IMG/VR virus record: IMGVR_UViG_3300043786_000180
Location: 1 to 30,425 of that record
Reading direction: 5' to 3' (one strand)
From: a virus
DNA length: 30,425 nt
In this document: piece after piece, positions 14-27,420 of the stretch
How positions within the stretch are numbered: the first letter of the stretch is position 1
Layout of the letters: the number at the start of each line of letters is the position of its first letter
Position numbers and translations under genes: made by a program
Notes under the pieces: model-generated
Seen by the model: only the letters and a program-made list of their open reading frames with translations
Told to the model about the DNA's origin: nothing
Databases searched by the model: none

Positions 14-85
14 TGGCCACTAGCTCAATGGCAGAGCAACCGCCTGTTAAGCGGTAGGTTCTTGGTTCGAGTCCAAGGTGGCCAG
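14..85 (+). tRNA. tRNA-Asn (anticodon GUU)
   Basis: A complete cloverleaf can be folded by hand. The acceptor stem is TGGCCAC (14-20) with GTGGCCA (78-84), 7 bp, and the discriminator is G85. The D stem is GCTC/GAGC (23-26/34-37). The anticodon stem is ACCGC/GCGGT (39-43/51-55) with loop CTGTTAA, giving anticodon GTT at 46-48 (Asn). The T stem is CTTGG/CCAAG (61-65/73-77) with loop TTCGAGT. The 3' CCA is not encoded. It sits 12 nt before the WhiB start codon, so tRNA and mRNA are probably cut from one transcript. Phage tRNAs usually supplement host tRNA pools; that role is inferred here. Confidence 0.96.
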
Positions 86-97
86 CGGAAGGGAAAC

Positions 98-394
98 ATG
101 TATAACACAACACGAGCAACAGATTTATACAAAGAACTAACAGAACGCATTAGGGAACAGGGTGGGGTGCCCTGCGAGAATGCACCAGATATGTTTTTTA
201 TCGATCATTCTGATAAGTTGATTCGAGAAAAAATTAGAACAACAAAAATATTGTGCGGTGGCTGCCCACTGAAGAATCTGTGTCTAGAGTATGCTTTGGA
301 AGCAAACGAACAAGATGGTATATGGGGCGGTCTGACCAGACCACAGCGCAACTTACTTCAAAGAGGCAGGGTTATCCGTGAAAGAGTTCATTGA
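98..394 (+). CDS. WhiB-family transcriptional regulator
   Basis: This 98-residue protein has the WhiB signature: four cysteines (C26, C53, C56, C62; CxxC plus a fourth Cys six residues later) that would ligate a [4Fe-4S] cluster, followed by the G(I/V)WGG turn at 74-78 and a basic C-terminal tail (RPQR and RVIRERVH). The family is confined to Actinobacteria and their phages, where members bind the primary sigma factor and retune transcription; this is the best host indicator in the window. ATG 98 is preferred over an upstream GTG at 62, which lies inside the tRNA, and has GGAAGGG just upstream. The 3' end overlaps the primase-helicase gene by 17 nt. Its target promoters cannot be read from the sequence. 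Confidence 0.93.
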   Translation: MYNTTRATDLYKELTERIREQGGVPCENAPDMFFIDHSDKLIREKIRTTKILCGGCPLKNLCLEYALEANEQDGIWGGLTRPQRNLLQRGRVIRERVH

Positions 395-7910: not shown

Positions 7911-8657
7911 TTAGGCCCAGTTGCCAGAAATTAAATCGCCAGCGTAGGAACCCAACGAATTAAATCTTGTGTAAGAAAGCCTCGTAACTTGATTTGTTCC
8001 AGTTGGGTTAGCGCTAAAAGCAATTTGCGGACGCAGTGTTCCGGCGGTTGAGGTTTCGATAAGGCCGGAAATCCTGAATGATTTAGTTACCGTAGTAGAG
8101 GCGGGGCTGATAACACCGTTCGCAGCGCTGTTTGGGTTTCCGGTGAATGTTACGTTAGTAGATGACGCGGGCGCTGCGGGAGCAGCCACACCGGTAGAAA
8201 ACAATGAGTTGGAAAAGTCTGTAAAATACTGAATCTTGTCGATGCCAGCAGTTCCACCGAAGGCGAATGACACCGTGTGAGACGTGGCACCGGTCCTAAG
8301 CCCTACAAAGATGTCGAAAAGATACGAACTGGACGCCGGCATACTGATGCCAACTCCAAAAATATCGTAAAAAGTGTTAGCGACAACGGTGGCGACAATT
8401 GTTCTATCATTGTCAAGTCCATAAAAAAGACTGTCATCATTGAAAGCCTTACCCGAAACCGAACTAGAGGTAGTTAGAAAAGTATTTCCGTTATACTCCA
8501 GGCTTCCGGCAACGGGAGAAGTGAGACCCGGACCAGCGGTGAAACGCATTGGAGCGCGATCGGTGGAGCCGGCCGTCATGACCATGGTGCCAGATGAGCT
8601 ATTAAAAATACTTTGGCCGTTTAGATTCTGATGCGTATTTACTTTAATGGTACTCAT
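7911..8657 (-). CDS. Tail fibre / minor tail protein (beta-rich)
   Basis: This 248-residue protein is rich in Ser, Thr, Gly and Asn and poor in Lys and Glu, as in beta-structured fibres. Near the N terminus is PVAGSLEYNGNTFLTT, a motif common in tail fibre and appendage proteins. The remainder looks like a beta-sandwich head domain. AGGAG precedes ATG 8657. It is the last gene of the tail operon and lies just beyond another fibre-like gene, so it may form the distal receptor-binding element. No enzymatic motif was seen. Confidence 0.7.
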   Translation of the reverse strand: MSTIKVNTHQNLNGQSIFNSSSGTMVMTAGSTDRAPMRFTAGPGLTSPVAGSLEYNGNTFLTTSSSVSGKAFNDDSLFYGLDNDRTIVATVVANTFYDIFGVGISMPASSSYLFDIFVGLRTGATSHTVSFAFGGTAGIDKIQYFTDFSNSLFSTGVAAPAAPASSTNVTFTGNPNSAANGVISPASTTVTKSFRISGLIETSTAGTLRPQIAFSANPTGTNQVTRLSYTRFNSLGSYAGDLISGNWA

Positions 8658-8666
8658 TTGTTTCTC

Positions 8667-9770
8667 CTAAAGAACTACCCAAACTGTGTCGCTTGGAATT
8701 GTTATGGTGACACCGTCATTAACCGTAACCGGACCGACCGTCAATCCATTATACCCCGCGGGTAAAGTTTTGTTAGCCAGATATATCGGGTCGGCAACAA
8801 TCTTATCGAATGTCAGGCTGCTCCACTCGGTGTCGTAGTCGTCTCCGGTTGATTTTGCCAGTACTTGACCGGTAGTCCCACCCGGAACGACCCCCGCCCC
8901 GTATCCGGTTACAGCAGAAGCTACAATGCGACCACGTCCCAAAGTTATCGATTCGGTTCCGCTGTGGTTGGCCACATAAACCGCAACTTCCGAATCGTCG
9001 GGGACGTTAATAATCCAAGATGTTACAAGCTTGGCCTCCGCGCCAGCCTGACCGGTCGCGGCCCTACACTCAGTTGCGTCTATCTGCGCGCCATCTATTG
9101 CCAGTTTGATACCCAGTGTTTTATTTGAAGAGCCAACAGAAGCGTCAATCGATGCGTAAAAACGTAGCGTTCGTTCGTGCCCAGAAATATTTTTCAGGGA
9201 GAATCCGTCCGTGCCGACTACCATGTCCAAGTCGGTTGCCGTATCGAGCGTCAGAGTCAGCCCCGTGGATTGATAAACGCCCTGAGTGGCAATTGAAATT
9301 GTACCGCTGGTGGTCTTGGACGCCTGACCCTGCTGGGGGGTGCCGTTCGCAATCGGTCCCTCTGGCCCAACCGGTCCGATGGGGCCCTCAACGCCGCGAA
9401 GGCCGTCAGAAAATCTGTATTTAATAATAAAATCGTAATCGGGGTCGCCGGTTAGGTTGGGCAGATTGAATGTGTTGACTCCGTCGCCATCGCCGTAAAA
9501 GGTTCCGGTTGCGGCAAACAATTGTACATAAACAGTTCTTGAAACCGCCGACCCGTCACACAGGAACCAGTTATCCGGTGGCGCTGTAACCTTGGGCCAG
9601 CGAACAATAATACCCGGAGCCACGGCAGCAACCGACCTTTCATCAATTTCGATGCGGTAGGTATTGAGTGCGTTTTGTATCGAGGAAGCTTCGGCGGCGC
9701 TAATCGCAGCGGCCGACATTTTGGCGGTGGAGTCTGCGTAATAAATACCGTCAGGAGTAGTTAATGGCAT
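8667..9770 (-). CDS. Tail fibre with phage collar domain and collagen-like segment
   Basis: This 367-residue protein contains an N-terminal helix, then a phage tail-collar domain at about 52-106 (PPDNWFLCDGSAVSR, TFYGDGDGVNTFNLPNL), a collagen-like GxxGPxGPxGPxGP stretch at 126-139 and a beta-rich C-terminal part that ends with TGQVLAKSTGDDYDTEW at about 306-322, a recurrent fibre motif. The collagen-like stretch implies a trimer. It would be part of the host-recognition apparatus. AGGAG lies upstream, and the ATG shares a base with the preceding stop (TAATG), so it is coupled to the 42-residue ORF. Confidence 0.87.
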   Translation of the reverse strand: MPLTTPDGIYYADSTAKMSAAAISAAEASSIQNALNTYRIEIDERSVAAVAPGIIVRWPKVTAPPDNWFLCDGSAVSRTVYVQLFAATGTFYGDGDGVNTFNLPNLTGDPDYDFIIKYRFSDGLRGVEGPIGPVGPEGPIANGTPQQGQASKTTSGTISIATQGVYQSTGLTLTLDTATDLDMVVGTDGFSLKNISGHERTLRFYASIDASVGSSNKTLGIKLAIDGAQIDATECRAATGQAGAEAKLVTSWIINVPDDSEVAVYVANHSGTESITLGRGRIVASAVTGYGAGVVPGGTTGQVLAKSTGDDYDTEWSSLTFDKIVADPIYLANKTLPAGYNGLTVGPVTVNDGVTITIPSDTVWVVL

Positions 9771-19723: not shown

Positions 19724-20479
19724 TTAGGAAACTGTTACAACACAAGTGTCGCTGTTGCCGTTGTTTGGCCATGTTCCAGTAATGGTAGCCGAACCGTTTG
19801 AAAGCGCAGTTACAACACCGGCGGTGGAGACCGTAGCAACCGCAGGGTTGCTGGACTTCCACTGAATGCCATAGGTGTAGTTGCGTCCACCAAGAGTGGC
19901 GCTCAGCTTGCTAACAGCAGGATCGGTCACAGCCAAGGTGGCTGGCAACACAACTGGTGTCAGGGCCGAACCGATGACCGTGCGAACAGCAAAGTCACCC
20001 TGGGGGAGCATGGTTACCGTATAACGGAACGCTTCCTCACCAACAATAGACTCAGCGTATCCATCGGTCATTACCTTGAATACGTGCACAAGTTGACCGT
20101 TGGCGGCCAATGGGTTGGTGCGCTCGCCATCGATACGGATGACAAGGTAACCCTTAGTGCGTGGTGCGTCAAGCGCGTCGTAAGCCAGCGAGTAAACACT
20201 GGATGCGTCGTCAAAGTCGCGTGGGTAGTAAAGGGAAAGCGATCCACCGAAGTTAGTAAAACCACGGTCAATGACTTTACCAATAGCGGTGATGGCTGGG
20301 TCATCCAGCTCATTGCTCGCCTCGAGGTTGAAGTCAAAATCGTTCCAAGAGATAGCGTCCGAGATGTCCAACGATGCGTTGATCTCGGCTGCTGTGGGGG
20401 CCTGGTAGTTAGCGAAGGCGTTTTCCAATGCCCACCATACACGGATGTTACCGCTTGCGGGTACTCTTACGTCAGTCAT
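19724..20479 (-). CDS. Major tail (tube) protein with C-terminal Big_2 Ig-like domain
   Basis: This 251-residue protein has an N-terminal tail-tube-like domain (about 1-170; APTAAEIN, FGGSLSLYYPRD, YSLAYDALDAPR) and a C-terminal bacterial Ig-like Big_2 domain (about 175-251; QWKSSNPAVATVSTAGVVTA, GSATITGTW). Similar Ig-like appendages project from the tail tubes of lambda-type phages and may bind the host surface. The gene directly upstream is a paralogue. Its ATG overlaps that stop as TAATG. It is followed by a strong terminator, as expected for an abundant tube subunit. Confidence 0.87.
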   Translation of the reverse strand: MTDVRVPASGNIRVWWALENAFANYQAPTAAEINASLDISDAISWNDFDFNLEASNELDDPAITAIGKVIDRGFTNFGGSLSLYYPRDFDDASSVYSLAYDALDAPRTKGYLVIRIDGERTNPLAANGQLVHVFKVMTDGYAESIVGEEAFRYTVTMLPQGDFAVRTVIGSALTPVVLPATLAVTDPAVSKLSATLGGRNYTYGIQWKSSNPAVATVSTAGVVTALSNGSATITGTWPNNGNSDTCVVTVS

Positions 20480-21285: not shown

Positions 21286-21744
21286 CTAAGAGCCTATATA
21301 CGAGTCCGGGTTCTCTGAGTTGAATCGGAATCCAAGTGTTCCAATACCCAAATAAAGATGTGGCGAACCGTTCCTATCTGTTACCGGAAACACAGTCTGC
21401 CCCAGCGTGGGCGTCAATGCCGCACCGTTTGATATCTTCCAACCAATCAGTTGGTCCATAAAAAGATTCAATACCTTGCGCGCAATTCTTGGCGCTGGTG
21501 CCACTGCAATAATGTCAAATCTAGATGAGTACTCATCGTGTCGAACTCCGGCAAAAGATGCGTTAGCTACCTCGCGGGTTAGCCCGCTCCAACGGATAAC
21601 TACAAAGGGTTTTGTTTTTCTGTCTATACGCATGAGGTATTCGTCATCAAGAACCTCGTCTTCCTTGACCTCGTACTGCGGAAAAGATGTCTCAATATGT
21701 AAAGCTATTTCGTCCTGAATAGCCACCAGGTCTATGCCATTCAT
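21286..21744 (-). CDS. Tail terminator / tail completion protein
   Basis: This 152-residue protein has the alpha-beta composition of tail-completion proteins: an N-terminal helix (IALHIETSFPQYEV), then strands (PFVVIRWSGLTRE, SSRFDIIAVAPAP) and a helix (RIARKVLNLFMDQLIG). It lies after the HK97 gp10-like gene and just before the tail-tube genes, the usual place of the protein that caps the tail. ATG 21744 overlaps the preceding stop (ATGA), with AGGAGG about 11 nt upstream. The family is inferred from order and topology. Confidence 0.65.
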   Translation of the reverse strand: MNGIDLVAIQDEIALHIETSFPQYEVKEDEVLDDEYLMRIDRKTKPFVVIRWSGLTREVANASFAGVRHDEYSSRFDIIAVAPAPRIARKVLNLFMDQLIGWKISNGAALTPTLGQTVFPVTDRNGSPHLYLGIGTLGFRFNSENPDSYIGS

Positions 21745-22295
21745 GCTTTGTTAATCCTCCTGGTAATTCTGGACTTGTATTTTGTTGTCAGTCTTGGCAA
21801 TTGAGATTCGGCGTCAGCGCCAGAATCCCGAAGAGCAAACATTCCCTTGGTGTTCTTGTAGCCACCAAACGGGTTACGCATGATTACGGGACCGCCGTTG
21901 ACAATTCTAAGCCTACCCGAACCAGTATAAGCCGCAATGAATTTGTTCTTGAATCCAGTCTCCTGGTATTCAAAGTATTCCTCAAAGTTTCTTATCCAAC
22001 CAAACTCGGCAGAGACTCTGGTTCCGGAAGCATTCGAACCGACAAGCGAAACTCGAGCATCTACGGAGTCGTACATCTTTCCAGTTCTAATTCTTCCCGG
22101 TCCCTTGTTCAATCCAGCAGCCGCGGCCGCGGCGCTAAACTTCGTCCCCCTCTGCTTGATGTATTCGCGCATTCTTTCTGCGCCAAATTCAGCAAGCTCC
22201 TCGGCCATTAGCTTGGATTCCTGTTTAATTATTTCTTTAGCAGAGGCGAGTTTTCTTTCCAGGCCGGAAATATTTATTGTGATAAACCGTGCCAT
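21741..22295 (-). CDS. HK97 gp10-like head-tail connector protein
   Basis: This 184-residue protein has an N-terminal helix rich in Lys and Glu (RKLASAKEIIKQESKLMAEE), then GPGRIRTGKMYDSV and an FGWIRNFEEYFEYQETGF block, the pattern of HK97 gp10 family tail-component proteins (a RTGxLRxS-like site followed by a V/FGxxxxYxxYxExGT-like site). It ends in a basic KYKSRITRRINKA tail. It belongs to the connector series between portal and tail. The ATG shares TAATG with the preceding stop. Confidence 0.8.
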   Translation of the reverse strand: MARFITINISGLERKLASAKEIIKQESKLMAEELAEFGAERMREYIKQRGTKFSAAAAAAGLNKGPGRIRTGKMYDSVDARVSLVGSNASGTRVSAEFGWIRNFEEYFEYQETGFKNKFIAAYTGSGRLRIVNGGPVIMRNPFGGYKNTKGMFALRDSGADAESQLPRLTTKYKSRITRRINKA

Positions 22296-22750
22296 TATGA
22301 ACCGCCGGAATCCGCAGTGGACTTGACATCAGCGTCACACTCGATAGTTCTGTTCCATCCGTAGGAGGAATTGATAGCGGATCGCACGGTAAGAATCAGG
22401 TTCTCGAGAACCACATCTTCCCCGCCGTCGGTAATCCTAATTTGCATACCCTCGCGAATAAGGGAAAGGTTGGCGTCATAAGGAACTTGAATCCTAACCC
22501 CCCGGACGGCACCCTGCATGATGTCCATATCCGGCAATCTCTCTGTTTTGATTGGCTGTACCCTGGCCGACCCAGACCAAATTACGGTCTCCGAGTTGGA
22601 GATGTAGTCGTTAGTAAACTCATCCCACTCCTGCTCGCGAATGTTTGTATCAATGATTTCTATTTGAGCGTTATACCAGCGCGCAACAGCGGCGCGCATT
22701 TCCATAGCAATGCTGGCGAAGTCGATGGGCGAGCTACTAGATACCGGCAT
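22295..22750 (-). CDS. Head-tail connector (stopper position)
   Basis: This 151-residue protein begins at ATG 22750, with TAATG overlap and GGTGGAA upstream; an in-frame GTG at 22759 is less likely. After a helical N-terminal part (SIAMEMRAAVARWYNAQIEI) it has strands such as WSGSARVQPIKTE and a GMQIRITDGGEDVVLENLILTV region. Composition and gene order (adaptor, stopper, gp10-like, terminator) agree with a head-completion stopper, possibly DUF6093-like. Assignment is positional more than motif-based. Confidence 0.65.
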   Translation of the reverse strand: MPVSSSSPIDFASIAMEMRAAVARWYNAQIEIIDTNIREQEWDEFTNDYISNSETVIWSGSARVQPIKTERLPDMDIMQGAVRGVRIQVPYDANLSLIREGMQIRITDGGEDVVLENLILTVRSAINSSYGWNRTIECDADVKSTADSGGS

Positions 22751-23175
22751 TAGTTCCACCAGGTGTAGTCTTCGTACTCCCGTTCCGCGAAGTCCATGTA
22801 GTGATCTTTATCGACATACATTGCAACCAGGTTAAAGTATTCTGAGGACTCGTCAGCAAGGGCCTCTTGGCGCAACTGAGCCGCAATCTTGCGAAGCGAT
22901 TCGGCAATGCGATCGCCATTGACAGTAAGGTCGTCGCTGGACCAGGACTTGAGTAGTAGTGCCTGAGAGGAGGCAATCGTCTCCATCGCACGGGCGGTAG
23001 CCAGCTTGACGTTCTCGCCATACATTTCAAGGAAAGCGTTGATTTCATCATCGCTAAAATAAAGGTATTCACCGACGCCACTAATAACATTAGTAGCAAC
23101 CGTGTCACCTAGAAGTACTCTTACTTTTCCGGTATCGGAATTGAAGTTAACAGGAGAGACGCCAAGGTTTGCCAT
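22750..23175 (-). CDS. Head-tail adaptor
   Basis: This 141-residue mostly helical protein has the gp6-like adaptor pattern: VRVLLGDTV, YFSDDEINAFLEMYGENVKLATARAMETIA and SESLRKIAAQLR-like helices. It lies first in the connector series, which fits the adaptor that docks on the portal. ATG 23175 is preceded, 6 nt upstream, by TAAAAT without Shine-Dalgarno, so it begins a leaderless transcript just after the glycosyltransferase cassette and its terminator-like hairpin. Confidence 0.75.
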   Translation of the reverse strand: MANLGVSPVNFNSDTGKVRVLLGDTVATNVISGVGEYLYFSDDEINAFLEMYGENVKLATARAMETIASSQALLLKSWSSDDLTVNGDRIAESLRKIAAQLRQEALADESSEYFNLVAMYVDKDHYMDFAEREYEDYTWWN

Positions 23176-23181
23176 GTTCTT

Positions 23182-23187
23182 ATTTTA
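23182..23187 (-). promoter_or_regulatory. -10 (TAAAAT), leaderless promoter of the connector operon
   Basis: The minus strand reads GCGGTAAAATAAGAAC then ATG 23175, with a 6-nt spacer. TGn is replaced by CGG, so this is a slightly divergent member of the set. Confidence 0.55.
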
Positions 23188-23202
23188 CCGCATAAAAGGG
23201 AA

Positions 23203-23249
23203 CCCCGCACCGGAGCCGGGGAAGGGGGGTTAGGCTCGACGGTGCGGGG
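23203..23249 (-). terminator. Large hairpin, probable minus-strand terminator
   Basis: CCCCGCACC (23203-23211) pairs with GGTGCGGGG (23241-23249), and GAGCC (23213-23217) pairs with GGCTC (23233-23237), leaving a 15-nt G-rich loop. On the minus strand it is followed by TTCCCTTTT. It would end transcripts from the glycosyltransferase genes before the connector promoter. The long loop is unusual for a terminator, so another structural role is possible. Confidence 0.55.
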
Positions 23250-23252
23250 AAT

Positions 23253-23269
23253 CCAGCAGGAGGGGCTGG
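23253..23269 (+). other. Small hairpin with AGGAGG in its loop, upstream of the plus-strand glycosyltransferase
   Basis: CCAGC (23253-23257) and GCTGG (23265-23269) close a 7-nt loop, AGGAGGG. It lies about 20 nt upstream of ATG 23291, further than a normal Shine-Dalgarno. It may be chance. Confidence 0.3.
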
Positions 23270-23290
23270 TATTACAAAGTTATCATAAAA

Positions 23291-23965
23291 ATGAAGTACT
23301 ATTTGAGTGTGCCCAGACTTGCCGTTGTTCTCACATTGTACGACAGATTAGAGTATTTAGATAGGCAAATATCAGAACTCGGCGCTCAGCGCAATCAAGA
23401 TTTTGATTTGTATATATGCAATAACAGCGCGCAAGATGTATCGTTTCCTGGCGCCCGTGTATATAACTACTTCAACAAATACAAAATGTACGGCAGGTTC
23501 TATCTAATCAGGGACCACATTGCAAACGCCGACTACGATATGGTGCTGCTCGTGGATGACGACGAGACGTTTCCGCCCGACCTAATAGACGAATGCTACC
23601 GACAGTTCGACGAGTGTATCGTAAAGTCCTTCTGGGGCTTCCAGACGTACCAGGATTACTGGGTGAGGGATAGACTGCGGGGCGACTGGAAAGGCGATTA
23701 CGCGGGCACTGGTGGCCTGCTGAGCCCTATTGAGCTGTGGCGTGTCCCCGAAGTTTATGAGGCACCGGAAGAATATTGGATTATAGATGATCTCTGGTTG
23801 TCTCACTGCATATTGAGATATACCGACTACTTGATTATGGGGCTCAACGTTGCAATTACCTTCTATAAAGATGAGGGAAAGAAGGCAACGTACTTATCAA
23901 TCAAGCCATTGAAGTCAGCGTTTCATAAAGAATATATTATGCCTTACCGCAGAGCCATCGAATAG
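23291..23965 (+). CDS. Predicted glycosyltransferase, GT-A fold (GT2-like)
   Basis: This 224-residue protein opens with AVVLTLYDRLEYLDRQISEL, a typical GT2-like nucleotide-sugar strand-helix start, and has LLVDDDETF at 86-94 (DxD-type metal site) and EEYWIIDDLWLSH at 160-172, with acidic pair D166/D167 in the catalytic-base position. No membrane helix is present, so it would act in the cytoplasm. It is the only plus-strand gene of the cassette and converges on the GT4 gene, overlapping it by 29 bp. Its promoter may be TATCAT at 23281-23286, only 4 nt before ATG. Donor and acceptor are unknown. Confidence 0.77.
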   Translation: MKYYLSVPRLAVVLTLYDRLEYLDRQISELGAQRNQDFDLYICNNSAQDVSFPGARVYNYFNKYKMYGRFYLIRDHIANADYDMVLLVDDDETFPPDLIDECYRQFDECIVKSFWGFQTYQDYWVRDRLRGDWKGDYAGTGGLLSPIELWRVPEVYEAPEEYWIIDDLWLSHCILRYTDYLIMGLNVAITFYKDEGKKATYLSIKPLKSAFHKEYIMPYRRAIE

Positions 23966-24881
23966 CGTTGTGCAGTTCCCCAATCTGTTTAGAAAACTCT
24001 TTGGATAAATTGAACGCACGGGCCTCGGCCTTCTGGGAATACTTCTGATAAGTCCGCTCGTCGTCAAGCGACTTTATTAATCTGACAAAAGAGTTTACGT
24101 CGTCGGGCTCGGCAAGCATTCCAGCGTCTCCAACTGATTCGACCAGGCCACGAGCATTTGAGCCAACGACAGGTATCCCTGATGCCATTGCCTCGACAGC
24201 AGCCCTGCCCCAGCTTTCGTACTTTGAGGGCATAAAGAATATTTTCGTCTGAGCGTAAATCGACTTCATGTTGCCAGTGTTTTCTACCACGCTCACGTTG
24301 CCCAACCTCTTGACTATTTGAGTTCCATAGCCACCCCTCACTGCCAGGAACTCTCGATCGCTAAGAATTTCCGCAACCCGCCAAAACATATTGACACCCT
24401 TGATGTCAATGAGATTTATAAATGTAATCTTGCTCGCGTCTTGTCGCTCGGTTTTGTAAGTGTCAATGTCCGTGTGTGGATTGACAATCATCTTGGTTAG
24501 ATTGTTAATCTTTATTCCGTCGTAGACCCACTTGGAGTTCGCGACTACTAAGTCGGAATTTGTTGTATTTAATCTAAAGAGTTTTACGGCCTGATCATTG
24601 TGAACGAAATGAACAATCGGTTTATTGATTGACTTGGCGTGGGTTATGGCGTGCTTGGTATCGTGATTTTGCGTGAAGACAATATCCGCATCAAACTCAT
24701 AGACCTGTGAGTACTTGATAATCCGTATTCCGTCTACAACCTTGTGCTGAGGATTTGGCTGCGCCACCATAACTTCGTGCCCAAGATTGCGCAGGGACAA
24801 AAGTATTTCATGCAACATCAACTCAGCGCCGGCCCGAGTGGATGGTGGATATAGATTTACATAGGCGAGAATTTTAGCCAT
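23937..24881 (-). CDS. GT4-family glycosyltransferase (GT-B fold)
   Basis: This 314-residue protein starts at ATG 24881 (an in-frame ATG at 24893 adds four residues). It has the GT-B pattern: an N-terminal glycine-rich segment (YPPSTRAGAELMLHEILLSL), ADIVFTQNHD and VVANSKWV in the first half, and the GT4 signature E222-x7-E230 (ESWGRAAVEAMASGIPVVG), whose glutamates contact the nucleotide sugar. It would transfer a sugar from NDP-sugar with retention of configuration. Its start overlaps the previous gene by 8 nt (ATGGCTAA), so the two are translated together. The acceptor is unknown. Confidence 0.9.
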   Translation of the reverse strand: MAKILAYVNLYPPSTRAGAELMLHEILLSLRNLGHEVMVAQPNPQHKVVDGIRIIKYSQVYEFDADIVFTQNHDTKHAITHAKSINKPIVHFVHNDQAVKLFRLNTTNSDLVVANSKWVYDGIKINNLTKMIVNPHTDIDTYKTERQDASKITFINLIDIKGVNMFWRVAEILSDREFLAVRGGYGTQIVKRLGNVSVVENTGNMKSIYAQTKIFFMPSKYESWGRAAVEAMASGIPVVGSNARGLVESVGDAGMLAEPDDVNSFVRLIKSLDDERTYQKYSQKAEARAFNLSKEFSKQIGELHNAIRWLCGKA

Positions 24882-25605
24882 TGGCCCAACCATGCAGCCC
24901 TGGCAAAGATTTCAACAATTGCTCATCCCTAAATCCTATGTGTGTTATGTAAGCGTCGTATGGATTGTCCGCCCAGAATCCAACCGTAGCGCTACTGTCA
25001 AGCTTTAGTAACTGTATTCCAAAATCATACTCGTGGCTTGGTGTGTTGGGATACTTGTTGTCAAGCACTCTTCTATGAAACACTGATGGATTATGCGCCC
25101 AGAAGTAGAAGTGCCCTCTTGTTTCGTACCAGTGGTCTCGCTTTATCGCAACTTGCCCCTTGTCATCGTTTAAGTGATGCAACAACAGGCTGCCAGCATC
25201 CAGATCAAGACGATGGTATTCGGAGTGCCACACCGTGCGGGGAACGCGCATCTGGATAATGTGTGGATTATTGCATAACTCATATATTACGCTCTGAACA
25301 TCTAGCGGCCTGAATAGCATCCAGTCTTCTTCGATTCCAAGGAAGTAGTCAACGTCAAGCTCGCGCAACGTGTCGAATATCTTCTGTACCGCTATGGCTT
25401 GACCGGCCACGCCACTGGATATGGGAACAATCGTAAAGTCCTGGCCGTAATTATTGACAAGCCATTTGACGTGCTCAGGGTCGCCGGAGTCATCGAAGAT
25501 ATAACTATACTTAGGCTTGTCTACCAGATTTGCCAGCCAAGAAGCTATGGTTCGCTCTATGTATCCGCGTCTACCGTTCCCTAAAATATACCAAGCGTAA
25601 TCCAT
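24874..25605 (-). CDS. Predicted glycosyltransferase-like protein (GT-A-like)
   Basis: This 243-residue protein has an opening typical of GT-A enzymes (YAWYILGNGRRGYIERTIASW, then YSYIFDDSGDPE) and FLGIEEDWMLFRP at 88-100, whose acidic EED could replace the DxD. HEYDFGIQLL and WADNPYDAYITHIGFRDEQLL near the C terminus resemble acceptor-side elements. The fold assignment is moderate. ATG 25605 lies 6 nt after a TAAAAT that is itself part of the preceding gene's last codons, suggesting a leaderless transcript as well as read-through. It is followed by the GT4 gene in the same operon. Confidence 0.7.
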   Translation of the reverse strand: MDYAWYILGNGRRGYIERTIASWLANLVDKPKYSYIFDDSGDPEHVKWLVNNYGQDFTIVPISSGVAGQAIAVQKIFDTLRELDVDYFLGIEEDWMLFRPLDVQSVIYELCNNPHIIQMRVPRTVWHSEYHRLDLDAGSLLLHHLNDDKGQVAIKRDHWYETRGHFYFWAHNPSVFHRRVLDNKYPNTPSHEYDFGIQLLKLDSSATVGFWADNPYDAYITHIGFRDEQLLKSLPGLHGWANG

Positions 25606-25609
25606 GCTT

Positions 25610-26236
25610 CTATTTTAGTGCAAACACTCCGGACTTATTAGTGGCATTTGGACCTGGCAATGTAAAGTTCGTTTCTTTTTCATTTATGCCATCTTGATAC
25701 ACCATTGGATCAGTGAGCCCGTAAACCTCAAAATACTTTACGAGCTCGGCGTTCGCCTTGTCTACTGGTTCGGATACTGATACAAGAAAGTCATATGACC
25801 TCATAAGTAATTTGGCATAATCTCTATTGAAGTAAACAATGCCGTGCGTTGAGAGCATATTGTAAATCCGATATAAATCTCTACTGTGTTGCTCAACTGA
25901 TATGCGTGTGTGCCCCGTGCCATTGTAAATGCCCCAGCGGGATATGCCGACGTACAAAGCATCGGCGCTGTCCGGCACATCTATTGTGGTGTTTGGGTTT
26001 TTTATGAAGATGTCATCTTCGAATATTGCGAATGGGCCACTTGTTGATTCAAGAGCGGTGCCGATTGCCTTGATGTGCGCCATGGTGCAGCCAACAATTT
26101 TGCCCAGGCCCTCGATGCCGGAAATTCTTGTAACGCTTTCGAACCCAAGAATCTTTAGAACGGATTCTGTAGATTCTTTTTTATGGACATCGGCATCCAT
26201 GTTTATGTAGAACGCCGGAATCTTATTTATTTCCAT
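25610..26236 (-). CDS. GT25-like glycosyltransferase
   Basis: This 208-residue protein has the layout of family 25 enzymes: an N-terminal IPAFYINMDAD strand, GCTMAHIKAI at 49-58 (the conserved GCxxSH-like site) and FAIFEDDIFI at 69-78 with an EDD metal-binding motif (E73, D74, D75). It lacks a signal peptide. Family members transfer galactose or other sugars to lipooligosaccharide or proteins. It is the first gene of the minus-strand cassette, with TATTCT 6 nt before ATG 26236. The stop TAG overlaps the -10 element of the next gene. Confidence 0.8.
   Translation of the reverse strand: MEINKIPAFYINMDADVHKKESTESVLKILGFESVTRISGIEGLGKIVGCTMAHIKAIGTALESTSGPFAIFEDDIFIKNPNTTIDVPDSADALYVGISRWGIYNGTGHTRISVEQHSRDLYRIYNMLSTHGIVYFNRDYAKLLMRSYDFLVSVSEPVDKANAELVKYFEVYGLTDPMVYQDGINEKETNFTLPGPNATNKSGVFALK
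25612..25617 (-). promoter_or_regulatory. -10 (TAAAAT), leaderless promoter inside the cassette
   Basis: The minus strand reads CACTAAAATAGAAGC then ATG 25605. The element lies across the last codons and stop of the GT25-like gene. It matches the TAAAATAG-N4-ATG form of the endolysin promoter. Confidence 0.5.
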
Positions 26237-26242
26237 TGGTCA

Positions 26243-26248
26243 AGAATA
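26243..26248 (-). promoter_or_regulatory. -10 (TATTCT), leaderless promoter of the glycosyltransferase cassette
   Basis: The minus strand reads TTGTATTCTTGACCA then ATG 26236, 6-nt spacer, no Shine-Dalgarno. It follows the capsid terminator, so the cassette appears to be transcribed independently. Confidence 0.5.
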
Positions 26249-26257
26249 CAACACAAA

Positions 26258-26279
26258 GGCCCCCGGTTTCCCAGGGGCC
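26258..26279 (-). terminator. Rho-independent terminator after the major capsid gene
   Basis: The minus strand reads GGCCCCTGG, loop GAAA, CCGGGGGCC (one G-T pair), followed by TTTGTGTTGT. The 9-bp GC-rich stem with a GAAA tetraloop would end the abundant capsid mRNA before the glycosyltransferase cassette. Confidence 0.85.
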
Positions 26280-26295
26280 AAAGTGTTTGTTTTTG

Positions 26296-27420
26296 TTAGG
26301 AGCCTGCTGCGCCAGTCGAGTAGCGCAGACCATCCTTGGTGATGTTGTACGCCTGTACAACGTGGCGGATACGGGTCTGAACGTCGTCCTCGTCGAAGCT
26401 ACCGTCACGAACGGGGACCTCTCCACCGGCGAGGGTGAAGTGTCCGTTGTCCTTGATGGAGATAAGAGGAGTGCGTGCGCCCGAGAGGAAGACCTCCCAG
26501 AAGTACGGACGGGTGTTCAGGTCCGGAATCACGAACCACCATGCGTCAGTCTGTCCACCCGAAACCGTGTCGAGAGCATTGAACTCGATTGGGTTGAATG
26601 GGCTGGTGATGAACGATGGGTTCAGGATTGTGGTCTCAGAACCGGAAACGCGCTCGATCTGCGAGATAGCAAACAAGTTACGAACGGTCATCGCGAGCGA
26701 GGTGCCGTAGACGAGCTTGTAGTTGTTTGCGACCACGCGGTTGCCACCAACGGTGTCTTCGCGCGATGATGCCATAGCGTTCTCGAGGGCGGTAAGGCTC
26801 AGGGCTGGGTTACCAGCAAGGCCCTTGCCCGAGAAGCCGGTGCCGACAGCGCCAGCGGTGGTAACAAACAACTTGGCCAGAGCGATGTCTTCCTGACGCG
26901 CAGCGTACTGTGCGAAACGAGAAGTCATCTGTCCGATCATGTCGAAGTTACCAATGCGACGCAAGGATTCCCATGACATACGGGCACGGATACCAGTTTT
27001 GCCTTCGAAGTCCTTGTCGAGCTGAGTGGTGGTGAACGGAACTGCGGGGTACTCTTCGTACTCTCCGACAGCGGGAAGTCCACCCTCAATGAATTCCTCA
27101 CCAGTGCCGCTTACAAGCGCGCTGGGGTCAACCTGGAAGTCACCGAAACGAATGATGCCAAAGTTGTCGGTGATGTACTCATCGGCAATCTGGTTCCATA
27201 CGTTCTGCTCCGCAGCGTACTGTGCGAGGAAGATAACGTTAATAGCAGGCTCCAGGACGGTGGGAATGTCCGAAGAGGAGATTCCTTCCTGAAGCATCAC
27301 CTTTGCACGAAGGTCACCCGACAGTGCGTTAGTCAGAAGCTTTGCAGCCTCAATCTGACGCTTGGTCGAACGCTCTTCAATGCGGGCGATCTCCTGCTCA
27401 ACAACTTTAATGTTAGCCAT
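26296..27420 (-). CDS. Major capsid protein
   Basis: This 374-residue protein lies after protease, scaffold and decoration genes, as in HK97-fold heads. N-terminal helices (about 5-40) precede a central domain that includes DFEGKTGIRARMSWESLRRIGNFDMIGQMTSRFA and ARQEDIALAKLF, and a C-terminal half rich in aromatic strands (AWWFVIPDLNTRPYFWEVF). AGGTGA lies upstream of ATG 27420. A strong terminator follows its end, as expected for an abundant gene. The HK97-like fold is inferred from order and composition, not from a motif. Confidence 0.9.
   Translation of the reverse strand: MANIKVVEQEIARIEERSTKRQIEAAKLLTNALSGDLRAKVMLQEGISSSDIPTVLEPAINVIFLAQYAAEQNVWNQIADEYITDNFGIIRFGDFQVDPSALVSGTGEEFIEGGLPAVGEYEEYPAVPFTTTQLDKDFEGKTGIRARMSWESLRRIGNFDMIGQMTSRFAQYAARQEDIALAKLFVTTAGAVGTGFSGKGLAGNPALSLTALENAMASSREDTVGGNRVVANNYKLVYGTSLAMTVRNLFAISQIERVSGSETTILNPSFITSPFNPIEFNALDTVSGGQTDAWWFVIPDLNTRPYFWEVFLSGARTPLISIKDNGHFTLAGGEVPVRDGSFDEDDVQTRIRHVVQAYNITKDGLRYSTGAAGS

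Follow-up and report, generated by a model that had tools for sequence, protein, structure and literature searches.

The cassette described here consists of four genes in the IMG/VR virus record IMGVR_UViG_3300043786_000180. The window (i.e., the whole stretch of DNA analyzed) is this entire record, with a length of 30,425 bases. Four open reading frames (ORFs) fill positions 23291–26236 and lie between the genes for the major capsid protein and a head-tail adaptor-like protein, where a previous reading based on the sequence alone (hereafter the sequence-only reading) had placed them. The motifs named in that reading are all present (GCTMAH and FEDD; IEEDW; E-x7-E in YESWGRAAVEA; LVDDDE). These four ORFs are best explained as glycosyltransferase (GT) genes. 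The assignment is well supported for GT4 and GT2, is supported by homology and a partial fold for the GT-A-like protein, and is weakly supported for the GT25-like protein. The genes and the adjoining features are as follows.

25610–26236, minus strand: GT25-like glycosyltransferase, 208 amino acids, with GC-x3-H, EDD, and YVG motifs; first gene past the capsid terminator
24874–25605, minus strand: GT-A-like glycosyltransferase, 243 amino acids, phrog_3047 galactosyl transferase family
23937–24893, minus strand: GT4-family glycosyltransferase, 318 amino acids; it shares 20 bases at its 5' end with the gene before it
23291–23965, plus strand: GT2-family glycosyltransferase, 224 amino acids; convergent with the GT4 gene, with 3' ends that overlap by 29 bases
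26296–27420, minus strand: major capsid protein (Phage_capsid_4, 8e-12), flanking gene and candidate acceptor
26258–26279, minus strand: terminator-like hairpin between capsid gene and cassette; 9-bp stem followed by TTTGTG; z-score of -4.7 for 26240–26300
26243–26248, minus strand: candidate -10 element TATTCT, 6 nucleotides before the first cassette ATG
23194–23270, minus strand: RNA element of two hairpins that separates the cassette from the adaptor gene; about 77 nucleotides with C-rich loops; 83 bits with the R1 model
22750–23175, minus strand: head-tail adaptor-like protein (phrog_18316, 2.3e-22), flanking gene; at the same post-capsid place in relatives, and its adaptor function would follow from gene order
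19724–20479, minus strand: tail tube protein (Phage_TTP_16, 9.8e-38) with a C-terminal Big_2 immunoglobulin-like domain (1.2e-8), candidate acceptor

For the GT4 protein, family membership is indicated by a match to Glycos_transf_1 (5.8e-17; 62 bits against a cut-off of 26.4) together with the E-x7-E motif. This protein also matches Glyco_trans_1_4 (6.1e-17) and phrog_26352 (1e-58), and is homologous to gp20 of the Streptomyces phage TurkishDelight. The GT2 protein of the window, taken alone, falls under the Glycos_transf_2 cut-off (18.0 versus 23.3 bits). At the family level, all 25 of 25 members match this domain (best 5e-8), the DDD motif is invariant, and the family profile finds TagF and SpsA in the PDB at 2e-5, which together place the family among GT2 enzymes. 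The model of the full-length GT2 protein (predicted local distance difference test (pLDDT) of 82 and predicted template modeling score (pTM) of 0.84) gave Foldseek matches of which the best 50 are all GT-A glycosyltransferases (top 2.6e-8). No match of the GT2 family was found among PHROGs or in the annotated phage collection. Homologs with 35–40% identity are present in more than 60 IMG/VR contigs. In several larger phages (L035, L047, L065, L072, and L082, at about 8001–8700), the neighborhoods that were read show a large cluster of glycan-synthesis genes that ends in a convergent GT2 gene and variously includes an epimerase, a nucleotidyltransferase, or a methyltransferase. A second strong GT2 gene was observed in the cassette-bearing genome G005 (L142, 14552–16553), directly past a collagen-like tail-fiber gene.

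The GT-A-like protein matches phrog_3047 (8.8e-10) over residues 13–214, such that the homology covers most of its length. Its profile also matches the galactosyl-transferase family of Iota gp239 and Octobien14 gp118 (from cluster C1 mycobacteriophages and a Gordonia phage) with a probability of 99.6% and an E-value of 1.6e-23. In the structure model, residues ~1–92 are usable and match GT-A enzymes (RmlT, Z of 8.7 over 90 residues); the model of the C-terminal part is too poor (mean pLDDT of 47.6) for its fold to be assigned. A search of 150 Microbacteriaceae genomes for a host origin of this gene returned no match, which is uninformative given that this search had no positive control. The GT25-like protein has the least secure assignment among the four. 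Its match to PF01755 (GT25) lies under the curated cut-off (E = 0.0043; 17.4 versus 24 bits), and PF01755 matches were found in five of nine members of its family (best E among nine relatives, 0.0011); this protein is therefore named GT25-like only. Matches to phrog_24091 (6.7e-45) and the glucosyltransferase family phrog_2835 (3.5e-7) were found, as well as 34–35% identity to cyanophage proteins, some of which are annotated as glycosyltransferases. When compared with the Che8 gp110/Corndog gp38 family, the GT25-like profile gave a weak match (28% probability, E of 6e-4; controls 0.2–1.7%), and both match PF01755 and phrog_2835 over the same stretch. Searches of PDB sequences with the GT-A-like and GT25-like profiles gave nothing useful. 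Comparisons of the GT2 and GT4 proteins of the window with the GTs of Che8 or Firecracker gave no support for kinship.

The sequence-only reading counted four distinct folds. Instead, the cassette comprises four families and probably two folds, because GT4 is from a GT-B family and the other three proteins are from GT-A-type families. None of the four proteins has a transmembrane segment (maximum 19-residue hydropathy of 1.26), and neither a membrane-embedded flippase nor a membrane-anchored GT, as in Gtr-type (GtrA/GtrB) serotype conversion, is found among them. The clustering of several phage-encoded GT genes that characterizes cassettes of the Corndog/Che8 type is seen here, with four such genes. 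The impression that the cassette is AT-rich was borne out, as it is the lowest-GC stretch of 2,946 bases in the record (0.459 versus 0.518 elsewhere; 0 of 550 sliding windows were lower).

Relatives were collected by the capsid protein and then searched with the proteins of the window. In about 20 related contigs, some of which are near-duplicates, the cassette is absent and the capsid and adaptor genes lie only about 170 bases apart. The cassette is thus a true insertion into an otherwise conserved junction. All four GT genes, in the same order and on the same strands, are present in L006, L007, L008, and L028 (the last contig stops just short of the capsid gene). A variant cassette is found in L024, in which the GT25-like gene and the convergent GT2 gene have relatives (35% and 49%, respectively), with a 157-amino-acid ORF in front (9186–9659). 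This ORF has no Pfam or PHROG match and may encode another transferase. The cassette-free genomes G002, G004, G006, and G007 yielded no GT2 or GT4 match at any other position. The same junction contains collagen-like and fiber-like genes in the distant L116 (9101–11487) and a 213-amino-acid ORF, HNH-like by eye, in L122, so it appears to be a general site for extra genes.

Synonymous divergence (dS) and its ratio to nonsynonymous divergence (dN/dS) were calculated by the Nei-Gojobori method with our own script. Between the window and L006, dS is 0.04–0.07 for the capsid and adaptor genes on either side versus 0.24–0.99 for the cassette genes. Every cassette gene has a dN/dS of 0.045–0.175 against its closest relatives (0.06–0.18 for GT25-like, 0.05–0.11 for GT-A-like, 0.045–0.064 for GT4, and 0.045–0.072 for GT2), and the cassette proteins are under strong purifying selection. 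This pattern of retained proteins and differing DNA is consistent with a cassette that was replaced when phages with nearly identical head genes recombined. The GT25-like protein diverges faster, with 77% amino acid identity in L006 versus 94–97% for the other cassette proteins. Separately, the three connector genes just past the adaptor gene (L008 8058–9477 compared with window 21286–22759) show an abrupt fall to 30–72% identity between near-identical flanks, a mosaic exchange.

The sequence-only reading bracketed the cassette with two hairpins. The hairpin on the capsid side (26258–26279) exists and folds well, and a terminator-like hairpin past the capsid gene is also found in cassette-free relatives. 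The other one (23203–23249) is not a border of the cassette; it forms the larger half of the two-hairpin RNA, an ancestral element that occupies the same place in cassette-free relatives. This RNA predates the insertion and is a boundary outside the cassette, which sits between the capsid terminator and the RNA and interrupts neither. Compensatory changes were found in 12 of its 21 pairs among 19 sequences, and 0 of 500 shuffles reached the observed covariation. When the collection was scanned and the covariance model then applied, all strong matches fell at this junction in this phage group; L116 and L117 have weaker matches at the corresponding position. The element resembles mycobacterial small RNAs (sRNAs) with C-rich loops, and the best Rfam match was the mycobacterial sRNA F6 at 28.3 bits versus a gathering score of 46 bits, such that no family was assigned. 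A general host sRNA was also considered and rejected, as 150 Microbacteriaceae genomes yielded only a phage contig and two weak matches. The element may act as a small RNA of the phage or, alternatively, as a leader/terminator, and possibly merits a study of its own.

As for the claim that the cassette has its own promoter elements, sigma-70-type matches occur at chance level (6 found and 5.6 expected), and that part was not upheld. The part that stands is a conserved -10-like TATTCT-N6-start, which suggests a promoter and is also found in L006, L008, and, ahead of a different first gene, L024. A TAAAAT-N6-ATG that is conserved in relatives lies past the two-hairpin RNA and before the adaptor gene (region 23176–23193). 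Judging from their spacing to the start codons, TAAAAT before the adaptor gene and TATTCT before the GT25-like gene (region 26237–26248) may possibly give rise to leaderless late transcripts.

The genome G001, an IMG/VR contig of 45,766 bases (its contig is L007), is 99.9% identical to most of the window and adds a part that is missing there. The phage carries a WhiB-type gene (PF02467, 7e-14; window 62–394), which has been called a key indicator for actinophages (PMC10202952). Capsid relatives were found in a metagenome-assembled genome labeled as uncultured Microbacteriaceae (binning evidence only), and the nearest annotated phages include Clavibacter phage CN1A. A Microbacteriaceae host is likely, and related phages suggest a freshwater origin. 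Two further observations concern this end of the window. A tRNA-Asn (GTT) is located just ahead of the WhiB gene (window 14–86). Moreover, a WhiB-like gene accompanies the cassette in G001, G005, and G003, and none was found in G002, G006, and G004, which have no cassette; this is a pattern in a small sample that ancestry or incomplete contigs may explain.

On balance, we lean toward a cassette for virion glycosylation that is expressed late, like those of Corndog and Che8, and acts on the capsid and/or the tail tube protein. This is the best reading because of the Corndog/Che8 precedents, the weak GT25-like match above the controls, and a GT-A-like relative that shares cassettes with that family. 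We infer late expression, a virion acceptor, and a single pathway for the four enzymes. The cassette, which is horizontally variable, would be transcribed late from its own start past the capsid terminator. Four soluble enzymes would be made and, since they lack membrane segments and no sugar-nucleotide gene was recognized, would act in the cytoplasm on sugar nucleotides made by the host. A short glycan would then be added to newly made virion proteins before lysis, most likely the capsid and/or tail tube proteins. Several points weigh against this interpretation. The GT25-like link to Che8 gp110/Corndog gp38 is weak at the sequence level, and the phage is known from genes alone. No sugar-nucleotide gene was recognized in G001, where ORFs were read and only some were profile-searched. 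The genome comparison showed no virion genes confined to cassette-bearing genomes, and the presence of the cassette was not seen to go along with any feature of the capsid C-terminus. For the GT2 relatives in the glycan clusters of larger phages, a role at the host surface is as likely. The capsid C-terminal tail was considered as a cassette-linked acceptor, and this comparison was uninformative because its glycine/serine-rich ends are similar with and without the cassette.

Three other explanations may be considered for the cassette. It is rather unlikely, though worth weighing, that the enzymes alter the host surface, in superinfection exclusion or receptor masking, by glycosylating, from the cytoplasm, a precursor of a cell-wall polymer. 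The fold and profile matches include the wall teichoic acid enzymes RmlT, TarS, TarP, and TagF, but the acceptor cannot be read from matches within the GT2 superfamily. Such a role has been proposed for Tweety gp104 (PMC2884959) and for the GTs of phages E7 and F5 (PMC10202952), and the GT2 family also occurs in the large glycan-synthesis clusters of other phages; however, the cassette has no membrane GT, flippase, or polymerase, and its four proteins are soluble. Moreover, three of the four genes lie within the structural block and share the direction of the capsid gene, and late expression would leave little time for wall remodeling. Less probable still is a passenger moron, in which each enzyme has its own target among the molecules of host or phage and no pathway is shared. 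The turnover at the site, L024 with only GT25 and GT2 relatives and an unrelated ORF, the faster divergence of the GT25-like protein, and the location of GT2 on the opposite strand may be read in this way, but the four genes occur together in all five cassette-bearing contigs despite dS of up to ~1, with dN/dS of 0.045–0.175.

The explanation that we find hardest to credit is glycosylation of phage DNA (hypermodified bases) that would block restriction. Among the GT2-family members, 18 of 25 are weakly similar to TET-associated glycosyltransferase (best 3.5e-5), but the family is nearer to ordinary GT2 (5e-8). Two adjacent genes for C5-cytosine methyltransferase-like proteins lie in the early region of G001 (L130 5577–7147), and a protective role has been proposed for the GTs of the freshwater phages E7 and F5 (PMC10202952). 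However, neither a TET/JBP match nor a thymidylate-synthase-type hydroxymethylase (Thymidylat_synt) match was found in this near-identical 45.8-kb genome, and four enzymes encoded next to the capsid gene would be an unusual arrangement for modifying DNA.

Should the virion be the target, particle glycosylation would extend beyond mycobacteriophages to freshwater actinophages that have not been cultured, for which evasion of animal antibodies is an unlikely reason. A bolder and more doubtful proposal is that the capsid-adaptor junction is a locus for virion glyco-types, at which phages with near-identical heads swap, lose, and replace multi-GT cassettes and thereby present different sugar coats in lake water; that vertebrate antibodies are not the main selective force there is, as part of this proposal, just as tentative. 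Close kin in which the site is occupied, empty, or allele-swapped form a natural comparison set for the function of a sugar coat.

The sequence-only reading also drew a parallel with actinobacteriophages that glycosylate their virions with their own GTs, and work on Corndog (PMC4351075) and on the Che8 and Corndog GTs (PMC12363180) agrees with it. Corndog-type phages have an O-methyltransferase and three GTs among the head genes, and were suspected of capsid modification since expected peptides were missing (PMC4351075). Che8 gp110 and Corndog gp38 are reported to be essential for capsid glycosylation (PMC12363180), and glycans are reported on the C-termini of capsid and tail-tube proteins (PMC12619734). 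Corndog and Firecracker (cluster O) share with the cassette a multi-GT block in the head-gene region that includes a GT25-like gene, and capsid glycosylation is reported for Corndog (PMC12363180). However, their block differs in its portal/protease site (in the Firecracker map, the O-methyltransferase and three GTs lie between portal and protease), in its O-methyltransferase, and in having no GT4 match, and weak profile similarity is limited to the GT25-like gene. Che8 (cluster F) has three GTs (gp108–110), the last of which is GT25-like, and capsid glycans are reported; these genes are near the genome end, outside the structural block, and their sequence link to the cassette is weak. In Iota (gp237–242; cluster C1) and the Gordonia phage Octobien14 (gp118–121), a clear GT-A-like homolog shares a multi-GT cassette with a GT25-like gene that belongs to the Che8 gp110/Corndog gp38 family, whereas these cassettes do not lie beside capsid and adaptor genes and are known here from genes alone. 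TurkishDelight gp20 is a single-GT precedent, as this GT4 homolog is located between the major capsid and tail/adaptor genes, although it is one protein of 678 amino acids rather than a four-gene cassette. The Nanopelagicales phages E7 and F5 are likewise freshwater actinophages that carry both WhiB and GT genes, but are reported as a separate phage family (PMC10202952). Taken together, this is a further actinobacteriophage glycosylation cassette, similar to those already known in mycobacteriophages and ordinary in kind. It is unusual in detail, and its occupied, empty, and allele-swapped sites form a set of uncommon clarity.

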